Notes under the pieces: model-generated
Told to the model about the DNA's origin: nothing
The model's database searches: none
Seen by the model: the letters and a program-made list of their open reading frames with translations, nothing else
Made by a program: the position numbers and the translations under genes
In this document: positions 19,166 to 24,802 of the stretch, one piece after another
How the letters are laid out: every line of letters starts with the position of its first letter
How positions within the stretch are numbered: position 1 is the first letter of the stretch
IMG/VR virus record: IMGVR_UViG_3300037584_000261
Location: 1 to 24,848 of that record
Source of the DNA: a virus
Strand: one strand, 5' to 3'
DNA: 24,848 bases

Positions 19166-20685
19166 GCAAATATATCAAACTCTGTACTGGCAACTGATTG
19201 CCTAAACTTATTATTAGTTCCTCTTGTTAATCTTTTATGCTCACCACCTCCAAGCAGTAAGTACATAAACGCATCACCAACATGCGAATGTTCATTCTTG
19301 TTTGGAGCATCCTTATATCTTTCACCACCAGATATTTGTACTCGTTTAAAATGATAGCCACCAGATAATGCCTTCCTTAATCTTTGACATCTCTTATCTA
19401 CAAGTAATCCTGGTTTACCTTCTATCAATCTATTCATAGGCATAGCTCCAGCCTCTCGTCTTACTCTAAAATCATTAGATGCAGTTGGTCTAGCAGTCAA
19501 TCCTATAGATCTTAAATGATCAAAAGCTGTAACCTCATAGATCTCATCTCTCTTCATACCAGCTGGATCTCCATGGACTAGAACCTCAAACTTAGGAAAC
19601 TTACTAGCCAGTTCTGTTTTTAACATTTCACCAAATCTTTCTAATCCCATATCAAAGGTAACTAACTCATGTAAAATATTCCAGGTACCTTTTTTATTTC
19701 TTTGGCCAAAGATTGCAGCTGGAGTTAAACCAAAGTCCACACCCACCTGGATTGGTAAACTTATATCTGGTTCTAAATAATCTGCTGCCATTAATGTATC
19801 ATCATACTCAGATAAAACTGGTTTACCTTCTTGCACATAAGTATATAGGCCTTGAGCATAACATCTTATCCAATCTAAATTTTTTCCGAGTAGTGTTTGT
19901 TCATAGTAACCAGTCGGTAAATTTTTTTTATTTTCAGCTTGAGGGTTTGTCATCCACCATTTCTTTGCTGACATAACAAAACCATTAGCCTCTGGATTTT
20001 CTGGTAAATCTTCTTTGGTATATTCTAATACTGCACCAGGCTGCTTATAAAACTTCCAGGCATATTTACCTTTCATCTTTTCTTTCTCTGCTAATCTGTA
20101 CCACCAATGATCATCATCCATTGGGTTAGTATCCATGATGATACCTCTCCAGGGTTTGGCCCCTCCATCTGATAATGTAGGATACCTTCCAACTCTATGT
20201 GTTAATCCATCTATAACAGCCTTTGGTAATTCTCTAGCCTCATTCACCCAGGCTCCAGTCAATTCCATAGACAAAAGTTTTCTAACATCTTTTGGTTGGT
20301 CCAATGCTAAGAAGATAACTTCACAATCTATACCTGGAGCTCCATCCCTTGATGGTAATTTTATATGATGTGTCAATGGAGGGCTCCATCTAAATGGACC
20401 CCAAATGTTTTCTGGAAATAACTCTTGCCAAGTTTTAATAGTAGTTGTCCTAAGCTCTGGATAAGAATTACGAACTACAACAAACCTTGAATACTTGATC
20501 CCATCCTTAGGACTGGCCACTTGCTGTACTGCTTTCAACATTATCTCAGCTGCACATGCGTATGATTTGCCAGATCCAACTGGCCCCATCAATCCTCTTA
20601 CAAATGATTTGTCTTGTAGAAATTTCCAAACTGTTTGTGATGTAGAAAAGTCTAGCTTTAAATTTGTTATTGCATCAGACACCAC
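19162..20685 (-). CDS. terL: Terminase large subunit (DNA packaging motor)
   Basis: A 507-residue terminase with both working domains. The ATPase has Walker A at residues 34-41 (GPVGSGKS), adenine-side residues before it, a Walker B-type GAWVNEAREL at 144-153, and the coupling segment IIMDTNPMDDDHWW at about 182-195. The nuclease has the three expected acidic positions D317 (GVDFG), D373 (HGDPAG) and D471 (HSHVGDAF). It pumps and cuts DNA at the portal. The start is GTG at 20685, with GAGGG five bases upstream, inside the end of the PP-loop gene; a second GTG follows directly at 20682. The gene lies upstream of the portal gene, unlike T7, where it follows the fibre gene. Confidence 0.95.
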   Translation of the reverse strand: MVSDAITNLKLDFSTSQTVWKFLQDKSFVRGLMGPVGSGKSYACAAEIMLKAVQQVASPKDGIKYSRFVVVRNSYPELRTTTIKTWQELFPENIWGPFRWSPPLTHHIKLPSRDGAPGIDCEVIFLALDQPKDVRKLLSMELTGAWVNEARELPKAVIDGLTHRVGRYPTLSDGGAKPWRGIIMDTNPMDDDHWWYRLAEKEKMKGKYAWKFYKQPGAVLEYTKEDLPENPEANGFVMSAKKWWMTNPQAENKKNLPTGYYEQTLLGKNLDWIRCYAQGLYTYVQEGKPVLSEYDDTLMAADYLEPDISLPIQVGVDFGLTPAAIFGQRNKKGTWNILHELVTFDMGLERFGEMLKTELASKFPKFEVLVHGDPAGMKRDEIYEVTAFDHLRSIGLTARPTASNDFRVRREAGAMPMNRLIEGKPGLLVDKRCQRLRKALSGGYHFKRVQISGGERYKDAPNKNEHSHVGDAFMYLLLGGGEHKRLTRGTNNKFRQSVASTEFDIFA

Positions 20686-21505
20686 ACATACCCTCGCAAT
20701 TATCTAATTGTCCAAAATCTTCATGGAATAATTCTGGTTGTCCTTTTTCTGCATTGGTTCTTAAATCTGCCTCATTAAGTGGTACACAATCTTTATGAAC
20801 ATAAACTTTATCATCAGTCTTAGTTCCAGTTCTTATTTTTTTGTCAAACTCAACAGCTTGTTTCCATTCATTAGGAAAATTATTTTTTAATGCTTTCCAT
20901 TCTGTATTTGTTTTATAAGGACAATATATACATGCAGACCTTGGTAGATTTTTATCATAATGTTTTGCAAACCAATCTTGACAATCTTTGCGTCTAATTT
21001 TTTTATCTATCAAAGGATAAACATTTTCAATCCATTTAATTTGATTTGTTTTCATTCTAATTATTTCATCAAATGATATACCCATAAGTAATTGTACATT
21101 AGTACCTTGCTTTCTTTTTTCTCCTTTTTGCAAACCTAACAACTCTCTAATCTTTTTATTTACTGGCCTTATTTTGTAGTTACTCGTACATTGTCTGCGT
21201 AATAAACCTTTTTTTCCAGTTTCATTATTTTTAGTAAAGAGTGGCACTTCAACAAAATTCCATCTGCCTTTACCTTCTGCATTGTTAATACTATCTTGAG
21301 TAAGATCTCCACCAGATACTTTGTAAATAGGATATGATAATTGTTTTTCTAACCAGGTAAGATGGTCATAAACCTCTTTAGGTTCTGCCATAGTATCAGC
21401 AAAGATAGCAGCATCTACCATTGGCACCTCTCCTTTTTCAATCATTAATGCAAGAGTAGAACTTTGAACTCCAGCTCCTAAAGATAATATTCTAAGATCA
21501 CTCAT
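20675..21505 (-). CDS. PP-loop sulfurtransferase / PAPS-reductase-family protein
   Basis: About 276 residues from ATG 21505 (ATGA overlap); another in-frame ATG at 21517 would add four. The PP-loop reads SLGAGVQSST near the N-terminus, binding ATP for adenylation. Counted from the 21517 start, further family marks are a CTSNYKIRP element at 110-118, GISFDEIIRMK at 147-156, DCQDWF at 178-183, a CIYCPYK pair at 196-202 and a terminal CEGMCGV (C274, C278). The cysteines suggest an iron-sulfur cluster or persulfide chemistry. It lacks the ECGLH tail of assimilatory CysH, so sulfate reduction is unlikely; nucleic-acid or cofactor thiolation is a better guess. The DNA is markedly AT-rich beside the terminase gene, suggesting later arrival. 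Confidence 0.8.
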   Translation of the reverse strand: MSDLRILSLGAGVQSSTLALMIEKGEVPMVDAAIFADTMAEPKEVYDHLTWLEKQLSYPIYKVSGGDLTQDSINNAEGKGRWNFVEVPLFTKNNETGKKGLLRRQCTSNYKIRPVNKKIRELLGLQKGEKRKQGTNVQLLMGISFDEIIRMKTNQIKWIENVYPLIDKKIRRKDCQDWFAKHYDKNLPRSACIYCPYKTNTEWKALKNNFPNEWKQAVEFDKKIRTGTKTDDKVYVHKDCVPLNEADLRTNAEKGQPELFHEDFGQLDNCEGMCGV

Positions 21506-21711
21506 TCGCAAATACATCCATATAGATCACCACTACCATCATTCATGACATGTCTATTTATGGGAGCATCATGATAGGTTGTCAATTTTAATCTTATTAT
21601 ATCGCAAAACTCAAAGCAATCTACTGCTGTTAATAATGTAATACTTTGTAACATTTCTTGGGTAACTACTACTAAACTATATATACCATCACTTAAAATA
21701 ATTAAACTCAT
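21502..21711 (-). CDS. 69-residue protein of unknown function
   Basis: The ATG at 21711 overlaps the stop of the 49-residue basic gene by ATGA and has an AGAGGTGG ribosome-binding site close upstream. The first half is hydrophobic with strand-like repeats (MSLIILSDGIYSLVVVTQEM), the middle is FEFCDIIRLKL, and the end contains DGSGDLYGCICE with two cysteines. Four cysteines in total (33, 36, 66 and 68 approximately) could bind a metal, but the spacing matches no motif I recognise. It overlaps the PP-loop gene start and may work with it, since both are cysteine-rich and coupled. That link is speculative. Confidence 0.55.
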   Translation of the reverse strand: MSLIILSDGIYSLVVVTQEMLQSITLLTAVDCFEFCDIIRLKLTTYHDAPINRHVMNDGSGDLYGCICE

Positions 21712-21857
21712 TTACCACCTCTATTTCGTTTTTTCCAAGATCTCTTTTTATGCTTATTCATACTGGAGAACTTCGGTTTTTTTCGTTTTGATATTGATGT
21801 TTTCTTTGGGATCCTTTCGTGGGGTTGTTTGCTTATATCAAACTTTACTCTTGCCAT
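21708..21857 (-). CDS. 49-residue basic phage protein
   Basis: ATG 21857 (or the ATG one codon earlier, 21860) is preceded by GAGGAGG, and the frame ends at TGA 21708 in an ATGA overlap. The peptide reads MARVKFDISKQPHERIPKKT, then SISKRKKPKFSSMNKHKKRS and WKKRNRGGK. More than a third of the residues are lysine or arginine. The KTSIxKRxxPKxSSMNKHKKRxWKKxRGxGK pattern is one I have seen in small conserved phage proteins, though I cannot name a family. Its first 20 bases overlap the end of the small terminase gene in another frame. A nucleic-acid-binding partner of packaging is plausible from charge and position. Confidence 0.65.
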   Translation of the reverse strand: MARVKFDISKQPHERIPKKTSISKRKKPKFSSMNKHKKRSWKKRNRGGK

Positions 21858-22296
21858 CATCCTCCTCTATATCAATTATTGGTTTAGCATCTGGTCCTTG
21901 CATTACAATACCAACAACTGATGGTCTATCGCTATCCTCATGCTGTTCTAATAATCCAGCAGCCTTAGCCAACACCCTAAGTACAGCTACCTTGTCATGC
22001 AGCTCTACCTCTAGCTGAGGGCCTAGTTTTGTCGGAGTAACTTTAATTTTTTTTATAGCTTTAACTGCTGCATCCGATATGTTTTTAGTATCTTTTATTG
22101 TAACATTACCTTTATCATCCCACTCCATAATATCGGCAATATTAGCTTGAGCTATATCAACAAGTTCTTTAGCAACACTTTCCTTGTTGTGTTCAATGAT
22201 CTCGGATTTTTGCACTCTCCTCTGGACCACTCGGACACCACCGAACCGATCCAAAGGAGGTTTTACTATTCTTTTTTTAGAATGGGATTGGGTCAT
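21838..22296 (-). CDS. terS: Terminase small subunit (Terminase_2-like)
   Basis: I choose ATG 22296 (152 residues) because AAGGA lies seven bases upstream; an upstream ATG at 22359 has no comparable site and sits deep in the previous gene. Residues about 45-125 resemble the C-terminal part of Terminase_2-type small subunits: ELVDIAQANIADIMEWDDKG, then NVTIKD, then AVKAIKKIKVTPTKLG, then VELHDKVAVLRVLAKAAGLL. This region forms the oligomer core. The N-terminus is short, basic and lacks the full helix-turn-helix usually seen. It should recognise phage DNA and hand it to the large subunit, encoded three genes on. Confidence 0.75.
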   Translation of the reverse strand: MTQSHSKKRIVKPPLDRFGGVRVVQRRVQKSEIIEHNKESVAKELVDIAQANIADIMEWDDKGNVTIKDTKNISDAAVKAIKKIKVTPTKLGPQLEVELHDKVAVLRVLAKAAGLLEQHEDSDRPSVVGIVMQGPDAKPIIDIEEDDGKSKV

Positions 22297-22576
22297 CCGA
22301 TATTCCTTCACTTGCTGATTTTTGGTGAAGAGGTATCTGAGGATCATCTTTATTCTCAAACACTCTAAAGAAAGCTACAAGATCTCCTTTGTTATACTCC
22401 TTAGAGCTATCCTTCTTGTAGATCTTAATATCCTTAGCACCTGGTACTGATGATCTTTCTTTTGTTTCCTTATCCCAGTTAGATGCATTCCATTCTTCAA
22501 TGATGTACTCACCTTCTGGTAAGCTGTATCCTTTCATAACCTTATAGTTACGATTGCTATGCGTTGGTCCACTCAT
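22277..22576 (-). CDS. 99-residue protein with SSB-like C-terminal tip
   Basis: The protein begins MSGPTHSNRNYKVMKGYSLP, contains a beta-type core (EGEYIIEEWNASNWDK, then AKDIKIYKK and KGDLVAFFRVFENKDDPQ), then a flexible stretch ending SDDPIPF. An acidic-(D/P)-IPF end is the hallmark of bacterial single-stranded DNA-binding proteins (E. coli SSB ends DDDIPF), which uses it to recruit repair and replication partners. At 99 residues it is shorter than a normal OB-fold SSB, and I cannot confirm an OB fold. It follows the noncoding control region and precedes the packaging genes, with AAGGA upstream of the ATG. A diverged SSB or an SSB-tip mimic are both possible. Confidence 0.55.
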   Translation of the reverse strand: MSGPTHSNRNYKVMKGYSLPEGEYIIEEWNASNWDKETKERSSVPGAKDIKIYKKDSSKEYNKGDLVAFFRVFENKDDPQIPLHQKSASEGISDDPIPF

Positions 22577-22710: not shown

Positions 22711-22739
22711 ATACTAAATGATTTGTAAAATAATTGCAA
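22711..22739 (-). promoter_or_regulatory. Candidate sigma-70 promoter for leader and SSB-like gene
   Basis: On the minus strand TTGCAA (plus 22734-22739) and TAGTAT (plus 22711-22716) are separated by 17 bases. Each matches four of six consensus bases. Transcription would start near 22704 and run through the structured leader into the 99-residue gene. Its place in the only long noncoding region makes it plausible, but AT-rich DNA often gives such matches by chance. Confidence 0.3.
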
Positions 22740-22744
22740 AAAAA

Positions 22745-22786
22745 TTGTGAGTTATCCCCCCATATAGTATGACGCGAGGGGGGGGC
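22745..22786. other. Noncoding C-run/G-run element with DnaA-box-like site (candidate origin)
   Basis: Within the 315-base noncoding stretch 22577-22891, six C (22756-22761) and eight G (22778-22785) are separated by 16 bases and could pair as a hairpin. They are extreme in DNA that is otherwise AT-rich, with long A runs just to the left. The sequence GTTATCCCCC holds TTATCCCCC (22752-22760), which matches the DnaA box TTATCCACA at seven of nine positions. The phage encodes a DnaA-box-binding-domain protein two genes away. An origin or control site is therefore a reasonable but unproven reading. The rest of the gap (about 22828-22891) shows nothing clear. Confidence 0.3.
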
Positions 22787-22891: not shown

Positions 22892-23737
22892 TTACCTAGG
22901 CATCTTCATTTTCCTGGATAGTTTCTTTACCATATCCTGGACCAGTTCCTTATTGTTATTAGGCTTGTCTTTCTTAACAAATACATCCTTATAAAAGATT
23001 ATTCTTTTGGGGCAGTCCTTCCTATTATTCCTTCTCCAGATAAGTATCTCCCTAATTCTAGCAGCAGCCCTGGCCTCGGTAAGTCCATTCTGTACCCATT
23101 CAGAAACCATATTCTCATCATCAATACTATATTGAACCAGAGTTCCGAAAATCTCTTCGGTTATTCTTACAAACCTATTTAATATGTTTCTGACTATAGG
23201 GTATATATGATTGTTCTTTGGGTTGTTATGCATGTACTCTGACTGCATATCTGGATATGTATTGGGAACCATATTAGAACTATTCTTATCTACTGACTTA
23301 TGTACTCTAGGTGCATAATTCTTTTTACCCCCACCTTTAGGACCTATGTGTATTTCTGGTTTATCTTCATAGGATCTGTCCTTATCTGGTACCATAGCTA
23401 AAGCATCCTCTTCCTTAATCTTAGGATCAAACACCATAAAGTATTTGTTACCTTTGAGGCCAGGATGTTTCTTAGCATAGCGAATATAATCCCACTCAAT
23501 AAGTTTCTTAATATGTCTTGAAACAGTTGATTGGGTTATGTGCAAGTTCCTGGCTATAGTTAATTGGTTCGGCCAACAGACACCTTGCCTGGATGTGTAG
23601 TTACCAAGTGCTGCAAGGATCATGAAGGTTCTTGGATAAGTCTTGAACCTTTTATCTATTACAGCTCTTTGAGGCAGTACACAAAAGTGGCCAGGTGTTC
23701 TGCCTTTACCATAATCAGCTTTCTTTTTATCACTCAT
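22892..23737 (-). CDS. Winged-helix replication / regulatory protein
   Basis: A 281-residue protein with a winged helix-turn-helix at about residues 33-105. The core reads TFMILAALGNYT, then CWPNQLTIARNLHITQSTVS, then RHIKKLIEWDYIRYAKK. This resembles the N-terminal domain of phage and plasmid replication proteins (helix-turn-helix 36/RepA type). The middle (about 110-165) is polar and probably flexible. The C-terminal part (about 175-281) is helical, with RIREILIWRRNNRKDCPKRI, and may contact a helicase or primase. It starts in an ATGA overlap with the methyltransferase gene and is the last gene before the noncoding control region, so initiation of phage replication or transcription control is likely. 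Confidence 0.7.
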   Translation of the reverse strand: MSDKKKADYGKGRTPGHFCVLPQRAVIDKRFKTYPRTFMILAALGNYTSRQGVCWPNQLTIARNLHITQSTVSRHIKKLIEWDYIRYAKKHPGLKGNKYFMVFDPKIKEEDALAMVPDKDRSYEDKPEIHIGPKGGGKKNYAPRVHKSVDKNSSNMVPNTYPDMQSEYMHNNPKNNHIYPIVRNILNRFVRITEEIFGTLVQYSIDDENMVSEWVQNGLTEARAAARIREILIWRRNNRKDCPKRIIFYKDVFVKKDKPNNNKELVQDMVKKLSRKMKMPR

Positions 23738-24273
23738 ATTTCGTTACCCCAAACATCCCAGCCTGGAGTTTTTTGTCTTGCAAATAATTCTATTCTTGGA
23801 AGATCACCACAAAGCTCAACAATTCTATCTCTAACACAATCTGGTTTTCTTGAATGTTCTCTTAAATTATCAATAACAAGTTGTTTTACTTTTTTAGAAT
23901 GTCTTTTAAATTTACCTTTTCTACCTATCAAACAAATTTCACAATTTGAATTAGTGTAAAAACCTAAACCAGAATAAAAAGATCCTTTCTTATTTGTTTT
24001 TACCCATGTGAAAGCTACAGTTTTATAAACAAACTGCCATGATTTTAAAACCTCTATTCCTTCAATTAAATTAGGATAAGTAACCCAAAGAAACAAAATA
24101 CAATTATCATCAGATATTTGATTTATAGGTAATTGTTTTATTTGATTTAAAGATAAAGTTTTATAATGAGCTGATACATCACCATGAGATTTACCTTTAC
24201 CTTGAAAATTATTATAAGTCCAAGGTGGATCAGCATAAATAATCTGATACTTTTTATTTGGTAGATTATTCAT
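23734..24273 (-). CDS. MT-A70-family adenine N6-methyltransferase
   Basis: A 179-residue DNA (or RNA) adenine methyltransferase of the MT-A70 type. The catalytic DPPW is at residues 15-18 (IIYADPPWTY). Further marks are CILFLWVTYP at about 58-67, the AdoMet-binding-region motifs around TNSNCEICLIGRKGK (107-121) and a closing REHSRKPDCV plus LPRIELFARQKTPGWDVWGNE. All conserved parts are present, so it is probably active and may protect phage DNA from restriction or mark it. A hand count of 480 bases inside it gives about 27% G+C, against about 37% in the next gene, suggesting separate acquisition. Overlaps on both sides (8 and 4 bases) keep it in the operon. Confidence 0.88.
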   Translation of the reverse strand: MNNLPNKKYQIIYADPPWTYNNFQGKGKSHGDVSAHYKTLSLNQIKQLPINQISDDNCILFLWVTYPNLIEGIEVLKSWQFVYKTVAFTWVKTNKKGSFYSGLGFYTNSNCEICLIGRKGKFKRHSKKVKQLVIDNLREHSRKPDCVRDRIVELCGDLPRIELFARQKTPGWDVWGNEI

Positions 24274-24802
24274 TATCTGGTTGGGCCTCTGACTTTAGCT
24301 TTGCCTCTAGCTTAGCAAAATCAGACCACAATTCTATTCCACTTTCTTTTTTAATACTCCAGCAATTCTTTTTATCTCTCTTCAATCTTACATGGTGAAT
24401 GACAGTTGTATGATCTCTGTTACCACATGCTCGGCCAATCGCTGGTTGAGATGAATGAGTAAGCTCGTTGCATAAGTTGATATATACAGATCTAACTCTT
24501 ACAAGATCAGCATGTCTTTTATCAGACTTAATATCAGTAGGACCTACCTCAAAGTAATCGCAGACAGCCTCAAGTATATCAGAGATCCATACTCTCTTAG
24601 CTCTCTCTTCTGGTTTAGGTCTATACTTATCTCTTCTCTTCAATACTCGGAGCTCATCCATTAACTTATCTATCTTGCTCTCCAGGTAGTCTATTCTTTT
24701 TTTAATACCATCATCTTTAGATTGGACAATAGGTACAGATCTTTGTTGTACATATTCAAAACCAGGTGGTGGTTTGATTACATTATTTGGTATCTTTGTC
24801 AT
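24266..24802 (-). CDS. DnaA domain IV-like DNA-binding protein
   Basis: A 178-residue protein with a coiled coil at about 31-57 (KKRIDYLESKIDKLMDELRV). A DnaA C-terminal DNA-binding domain follows at about 70-146. The latter has ILEAVCDYFEVGPTDIKSDK, then RVRSVYINLCNELT, then the signature GNRDHTTVIHH (127-137), equivalent to the bacterial GGRDHTTVLHA that reads DnaA boxes. The AAA+ ATPase and the N-terminal DnaB-binding domain of DnaA are missing. The protein might dimerise by the coiled coil and bind host or phage DnaA boxes, to start replication or to block host initiation. The ATG at 24802 has GAGG six bases upstream. The same frame stays open to the window edge, so a longer start cannot be excluded. 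Confidence 0.82.
   Translation of the reverse strand: MTKIPNNVIKPPPGFEYVQQRSVPIVQSKDDGIKKRIDYLESKIDKLMDELRVLKRRDKYRPKPEERAKRVWISDILEAVCDYFEVGPTDIKSDKRHADLVRVRSVYINLCNELTHSSQPAIGRACGNRDHTTVIHHVRLKRDKKNCWSIKKESGIELWSDFAKLEAKLKSEAQPDNE

Follow-up and report, generated by a model that had tools for sequence, protein, structure and literature searches.

Gene organization at the locus

The analysed window spans all 24,848 bases of an uncultured phage record and has a G+C content of 34% and its genes on the minus strand. The gene of interest encodes a 99-aa protein, P0001, and lies between the replication and packaging genes. The O-like initiator, the MT-A70 methyltransferase and a protein carrying the DnaA C-terminal domain are encoded upstream of it on the same strand, and both terminase subunits are encoded downstream. 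The features are listed below.

24266–24802, minus strand: protein with a DnaA C-terminal DNA-binding domain (PF08299, E 2.7e-22)
23734–24273, minus strand: MT-A70-type DNA methyltransferase (PF05063, E 6.7e-32; phrog_359, E 3.4e-77)
22892–23737, minus strand: O-like replication initiator, HTH_36 (phrog_391, E 6.7e-10; PF13730, E 4.5e-8)
22720–22785, minus strand: conserved non-coding element upstream of the P0001 gene (C/G-run block and CACAATTTTTTTGCA)
22277–22576, minus strand: gene for the 99-aa protein P0001, MSGPTHSNRNYKVMKGYSLPEGEYIIEEWNASNWDKETKERSSVPGAKDIKIYKKDSSKEYNKGDLVAFFRVFENKDDPQIPLHQKSASEGISDDPIPF (open reading frame list and translation; 86 intact relatives)
22508–22576, minus strand: conserved N-terminal stretch with a GPTHSNR motif, residues 1–23 (lower model confidence)
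22358–22507, minus strand: predicted three-stranded beta sheet, residues 24–73 (AlphaFold2)
22298–22348, minus strand: variable and disordered linker, residues 77–93 (conservation, pLDDT and length range in the family)
22280–22297, minus strand: SSB-type tip DDPIPF, residues 94–99 (translation and family conservation)
21838–22296, minus strand: terminase small subunit, Terminase_2 (PF03592, E 3.9e-8)

The P0001 reading frame starts with ATG, comprises 99 codons and ends with the residues ISDDPIPF. A purine-rich, Shine-Dalgarno-like stretch, AAAGGAAAAGGAAATAT, precedes the ATG, and on the plus strand across 22277–22576 the frame read is closed by stop codons. The non-coding element located further upstream combines C or G runs with a stretch of TATAT, after which comes CACAATTTTTTTGCA, and it is also found upstream in the relatives. 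The 11-mer CACAATTTTTT occurs exactly in 79 of 88 upstream regions and as a near copy in the remaining 9; it is absent from phage MEP301, and no Rfam match was obtained in the window. This element is a candidate replication origin or cos site.

In the protein encoded at 24266–24802, near the O-like initiator, the DnaA C-terminal domain is the sole recognized domain; the protein is possibly a DnaA-box binder for the control of the phage origin. No polymerase match was found among the proteins scanned. A PAPS-reductase-like protein (20675–21517, minus strand; phrog_424, E 4.6e-42) is encoded between the genes for the small and large terminase subunits (terS and terL). The same interval holds only small hypothetical genes in MEP301 and, judged by eye, a C5 cytosine methyltransferase-like protein in two related contigs (L067 and L049). 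The terminase subunits are followed by an acetyltransferase-like protein, and the gene order further downstream, compared by eye, is that of the MEP301 head and tail module. Methylophilales phage MEP301 is the nearest cultured relative: among phage records, its large terminase is the nearest to that of the window (67.8% identity), and the identity to that of Pelagibacter phage EXVC031P is 44.1%.

The gene content of related phages was surveyed in 16 larger contigs. The SSB family PF00436 was matched in none of them (12 of 14 control genomes were matched), although any contig other than L083 might be a fragment that hides such a gene, and the ERF annealing protein was present in 13. In the three contigs that gave no ERF match, completeness is uncertain. 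Two of the contigs (L026 and L067) carry ERF some kilobases upstream on the opposite strand and not in the same operon; in L026, a YqaJ nuclease adjoins it.

Conservation of the C-terminal tip

Relatives of P0001 were sought in a collection of viral contigs using patterns that excluded the tip. The pattern scans yielded 22, 44 and 72 loci, and then 80 of 105. The set of 86 loci with an intact end is made up of 69 of the 72 (three were cut by the contig end and dropped) and 17 further contigs from the scan with 80 of 105. These contigs of uncultured phages encode 50 distinct proteins of 91–115 aa. When three family members were compared with 50,697 phage records by tblastn, no relative was found, and a fourth gave weak matches alone (E 2 to 7). 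No relative was detected in the single scan made of bacterial and archaeal genomes, so no host could be inferred via a provirus. A description of the family was not found in the literature, judged by titles and abstract starts. The family consists of small nameless proteins of marine bacteria-infecting viruses, in which the tail end of an SSB, with which bacteria recruit repair and replication enzymes, is attached to a body that gave no match to a known family in these searches.

Because the search patterns left the tip out, tip counts in this family measure conservation. The end [IV]P[FY] is present in 77 of the 86 loci and in 48 of the 50 distinct proteins, and the final residue is F or Y in all 86 loci. 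The tips observed are DDEIPF (39 loci), DDDIPF (8), DEPIPF, DDPIPF, LSDDDF and DDTIPY (6 each), DDKIPF (4), DDAIPF and DDDIGF (3 each), SSDIPF (2), and SNDIPF, DDAIPY and DDEVPF (1 each). The ends outside the [IV]P[FY] pattern are DDDIGF and LSDDDF. The LSDDDF lineage (L059–L064, one distinct protein) is a natural tip variant that retains the acidic residues and the final F and has no I-P. As for the background, an end with two acidic residues followed by [ILVM]PF occurs in 32 of the 37 family ends of the comparison set and in none of 1394 other distinct reading frame ends (at least 60 aa) from the same loci. The tip is more than chance, and the family has the acidic IPF-type tip on a flexible linker that characterizes bacterial SSB (77/86 loci versus 0/1394 background ends).

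The degree of conservation changes along the protein. The mean share of the commonest residue, with rows unweighted for relatedness, is 0.74 for residues 1–75, 0.41 for residues 76–93, 0.88 for residues 94–99 and 0.97 for the IPF residues. The linker is thus the least conserved part, variable in both length and sequence, and conservation jumps at the tip. Fourteen positions are invariant over 45 rows (P4, S7, N8, I25, E27, W29, G46, D49, Y53, D56, Y61, K63, G64 and N75). The first description of this gene, made from the sequence alone, holds here in several respects. Its coordinates, length and DDPIPF end are exact, and the body, put at about 90 residues, comes to 93 before the six-residue tip. 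The C-terminus does qualify as an SSB-type tip, as it is kept across relatives and the linker is not. That reading had named homologues with unrelated C-termini as evidence against itself; the relatives have related ones, except for the LSDDDF lineage (six loci).

The tip codons are shared with another gene. The ATG of terS lies inside them, and the two genes overlap by 20 bases in different frames. An overlap of the tip codons with the start of the next gene is found in 87 of 87 loci (window included), and the next gene encodes TerS in 78 of them and a Dam-type methyltransferase in 9 (PF05869, E 1.7e-18). For this reason, part of the conservation of the tip-codon DNA may be due to the next gene. 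Nevertheless, all four proline codons occur in the tip (CCA, CCC, CCT and CCG, the last in L208 and L209); these changes are silent in the tip and place H, P, L or R in the overlapping TerS frame. In one locus (L045), the tip phenylalanine codon is TTT instead of TTC, which is silent in the tip and changes Ser to Phe in TerS. Changes that are silent in the tip should be rare if altering TerS were costly, so the occurrence of all four proline codons argues that the tip is kept for itself. It is also kept in the nine loci where the overlapping gene is of the Dam type. Judged by these codons, the residues of the tip are kept in their own right. In L003, L007, L010, L015 and L026, the Dam-type gene lies between the family gene and terS; Dam and terS are unrelated genes, and each has used a start codon within the same tip overlap.

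The predicted core and its comparison with named systems

Profile searches gave little for the body of the protein. With the threshold set at E 1, Pfam gave nothing for P0001 and no SSB match (PF00436) for any of 27 members; the scan of these 27 members also gave no DUF669 (PF05037) match, and the NCBIfam scan of 45 members found no SSB match. PF10991 and phrog_112 were not matched either (Pfam scan of 27 members, PHROG scan of 45), and phrog_18154 and phrog_7364 were not among the matches in the PHROG scan. For the core, neither NCBIfam nor a PDB sequence search gave a convincing match. The PHROG scores of the core are weak and local. The best of them (phrog_38552, E 9.9e-5, member L075) covers 46 residues of a 430-position profile of unknown function and was treated as a chance strand pattern; 10 of the 45 members match this profile at E up to 1.

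The AlphaFold2 models place strands at residues 24–35, 40–55 and 63–73, and this result is the same from the 14-row and the 45-row (A4) alignments. In the 45-row model, the block means of pLDDT are 90–95 for residues 21–70, and pLDDT is below 50 for residues 82–99; the tail is predicted to be disordered in both models. Foldseek found nothing at E <0.1 in PDB (14-row model) or BFVD (45-row model), and the best VIA-align score of the core model was Z 2.8. A missing match does not in itself indicate that the fold is new. On average, the core is almost uncharged (net charge 0.05 in 44 distinct proteins); the mean for the tail is −4. The sequence-only reading had suggested a minimal diverged SSB, to be checked by the prediction of an OB barrel. 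As a shrunken OB-fold SSB, this suggestion is not supported: no SSB-family profile matches, and both models show three strands only, not a five-stranded barrel. These are single-chain models, and a barrel might form in an oligomer.

The most informative comparison is with MEP301 gp50. This 96-aa protein ends in EDDLPF, is annotated as “ssDNA binding protein” and is encoded directly before terS, with which it shares one base; its score against phrog_18154, “single strand DNA binding protein”, is E 1.4e-4. The MEP301 genome description names ORF50 as an SSB by similarity and states that no polymerase was identified in that genome (PMC8024684). The patterns used to search for gp50 relatives included the tip ELEDDLPF, so their tip counts are no measure of conservation. 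In the 80 contigs listed, a terS match with 39–46% identity to that of the window was found in 60. The terS gene beside these gp50 relatives is therefore homologous to that of the window, and P0001 and gp50 share a single genomic position among related phages. Gp50 relatives with a core, a linker and an acidic (L/I)PF tip occur in phages of Acinetobacter, Stenotrophomonas, Microcystis and others, and some small members adjoin Sak-like or ERF genes. The eight aligned proteins of the gp50 type (phrog_18154 / phrog_7364; 85–151 aa) resemble the window family in having a small core, a variable linker and a DD(D/E)(L/I)PF-like tip, as well as, in sister phages, a gene place before terS. However, the cores do not align. 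BLASTP of gp50 against P0001 gave E 14, hhalign of the two families aligned nine tip columns alone and no core (19 of 45 rows kept, Neff 2.3), and phrog_18154 was found in 0 of the 16 related contigs. The ssDNA binding of the gp50 type is itself an annotation.

A second phage system, the HK620 SSB (HkaK, DUF669, PF05037), provides experimental information on such tips. This phage-encoded protein ends in NDYPPF, and its last six residues are needed for stimulation of the annealing protein Sak4; when they are deleted, Sak4 fails to bind SSB-covered ssDNA and recombineering is cut tenfold (PMC5928155). The likeness lies in the tip-like end, which in HK620 recruits the phage annealing protein. The HK620 SSB differs in its length of 195 aa and in its neighbour, which is Sak4 and not terS. 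Hhalign of the family against six HK620-type proteins gave a probability of 0.1, i.e., no profile similarity, and PF05037 was found in 0 of the 16 related contigs, with a weak control.

In bacterial SSB (PF00436), the disordered linker and the acidic IPF tip are the shared features, and the DDDIPF hexapeptide is reported to engage in essential interactions (PMC5872125). In contrast to bacterial SSB, the window family has no OB-domain match and its predicted core has three strands. Proteins of the Enc34 type or gp2.5-like proteins (PF10991, phrog_112) come into consideration through BcepC6B, a more distant relative with an ssDNA-binding gene and a related large terminase. The BcepC6B protein, however, has 201 aa, a different domain and no IPF end; phrog_112 was found in 0 of the 16 related contigs, but no control genome gave a match, and this contig search carries no weight. 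By the tests made, the P0001 family is outside the SSB, DUF669 and gp50 families.

A putative adaptor to the host SSB network

The host partners of SSB include primase, PriA, RecO, Pol III chi, RecQ and exonuclease I. On balance, P0001 is probably a phage-encoded, SSB-like adaptor whose tail recruits such partners and/or the phage ERF protein. The small beta-sheet core (residues about 1–75) would sit on phage ssDNA or on a protein at the phage replication fork, and a flexible linker of variable length would carry the SSB-type tip with its acidic residues and IPF. The tip would dock in the pocket by which host SSB partners, and possibly the phage ERF, recognize SSB, and in this way would bring the phage annealing protein and borrowed host machinery to the phage DNA. 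That host machinery would be borrowed is suggested by the O-like initiator and the lack of a polymerase match among the proteins scanned. We infer the binding of ssDNA by the core, the docking of the tip, the identity of the partners and the order of these events. Its architecture suggests a function like that of an SSB's tail half.

Several observations fit this adaptor role. The tip is kept in most loci and distinct proteins, the linker drifts, and the proline codons indicate that the tip itself is kept. The small gene at the equivalent place in MEP301 is annotated as encoding an ssDNA-binding protein and has the same type of tip, and the related contigs often carry ERF and show no PF00436 match. 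By analogy, the logic of HK620 may apply, with a phage fork protein that shows a host-type tip to host SSB partners or to the phage's own annealing protein. On the other side, the near-neutral core lacks the basic surface that one might expect, and the modelled core, which has no PDB or BFVD match, consists of three strands in a bare sheet and forms no OB barrel. The core also shares no similarity with gp50 or the HK620 SSB, the LSDDDF and DDDIGF lineages show that the IPF can be lost, every locus has the tip codons overlapping the next gene, and in L026 and L067 ERF is separated from the gene by some kilobases and encoded on the opposite strand. The sequence-only reading stands in part: the SSB-type tip and, in a sister phage, the position of an annotated ssDNA-binding gene speak for it, and the shrunken OB-fold SSB is not supported.

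Small phage proteins with an SSB tip are a known kind, within which the window family is new and unnamed. It is possible, though doubtful, that in this family phages have joined the SSB tip to a three-stranded core that lacks the OB fold and is no SSB. The tip would then be a portable address tag for hijacking the host SSB network, carried at a single sister-phage locus by two or more small cores that are unrelated and have only the tag in common.

The sequence-only reading had also raised a decoy, which is unlikely. Here, the core would not bind DNA, and the protein would flood the SSB pockets of exonuclease I, RecQ, RecO and PriA, thereby sparing the phage DNA. The small size, the near-neutral core without an SSB-like fold and the disordered tail suit a tip-only competitor. 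Nevertheless, the gene has replication genes on one side and packaging genes on the other, at the place where MEP301 has its annotated ssDNA-binding protein, and the conservation of the core (0.74; 14 invariant residues in 45 rows) exceeds the need of a mere tip carrier. A single free SSB tip binds its partners weakly, so display on DNA suits the tip better than free competition. The replication-module context, the ERF-bearing phages and the lack of another SSB-family match favour a role in DNA metabolism over a pure decoy.

Less likely again is a recombination or primosome mediator, in which the core binds a phage protein such as ERF or the O-like initiator instead of DNA and host factors are attached to it through the tip, so that the protein is a bridge and not an SSB. 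Such a role would agree with ERF in 13 of 16 related contigs and with the position next to the initiator gene and the conserved upstream element; a PHROG profile named “Erf recombination cofactor Arf” was matched by 3 of 45 members, with a best E of 0.091 that is not significant. Three contigs, however, have no ERF match (their completeness is uncertain), and in the two contigs inspected (L026 and L067), the ERF gene is at a different place, on the opposite strand.

It is improbable that profiles and AlphaFold2 missed a genuine OB-fold SSB of reduced size, for example because the barrel forms only as a dimer. The beta-rich core, the SSB-type tail and the SSB-like gene neighbourhood point in that direction, and both methods are limited by the low depth of the alignment (19 of 45 rows retained, Neff 2.3). 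Against it are the absence of Pfam SSB matches in 27 members at E up to 1 and of NCBIfam matches in 45, and the three high-confidence strands, which leave little room for five. Finally, an accidental resemblance of the IPF end to SSB, as a by-product of bases kept for the terminase start or N-terminus, would agree with the overlap in 87 of 87 loci but is very improbable: it is largely refuted by the codon pattern (rows unweighted for relatedness), in which the TerS frame reads H, P, L or R, by the tip being kept where Dam replaces TerS, and by the same type of tip in gp50 with an overlap of one base only.

If the portable-tag reading is right, phages pass the SSB tip as a module from one small protein to another, unrelated one, and searches for the tip could find replication and recombination adaptors that are missed by homology searches. 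An unannotated gene of an uncultured marine phage group would also gain a function. The swap between the window family and gp50 at one locus in sister phages offers a natural way to test which of the two the phage needs, the tip by itself or a core that binds DNA. Among the related contigs, one of 32,183 bases (L083, G009) has ends that repeat 99 bases, 98 of them identical, so this contig is probably complete with a circular map.
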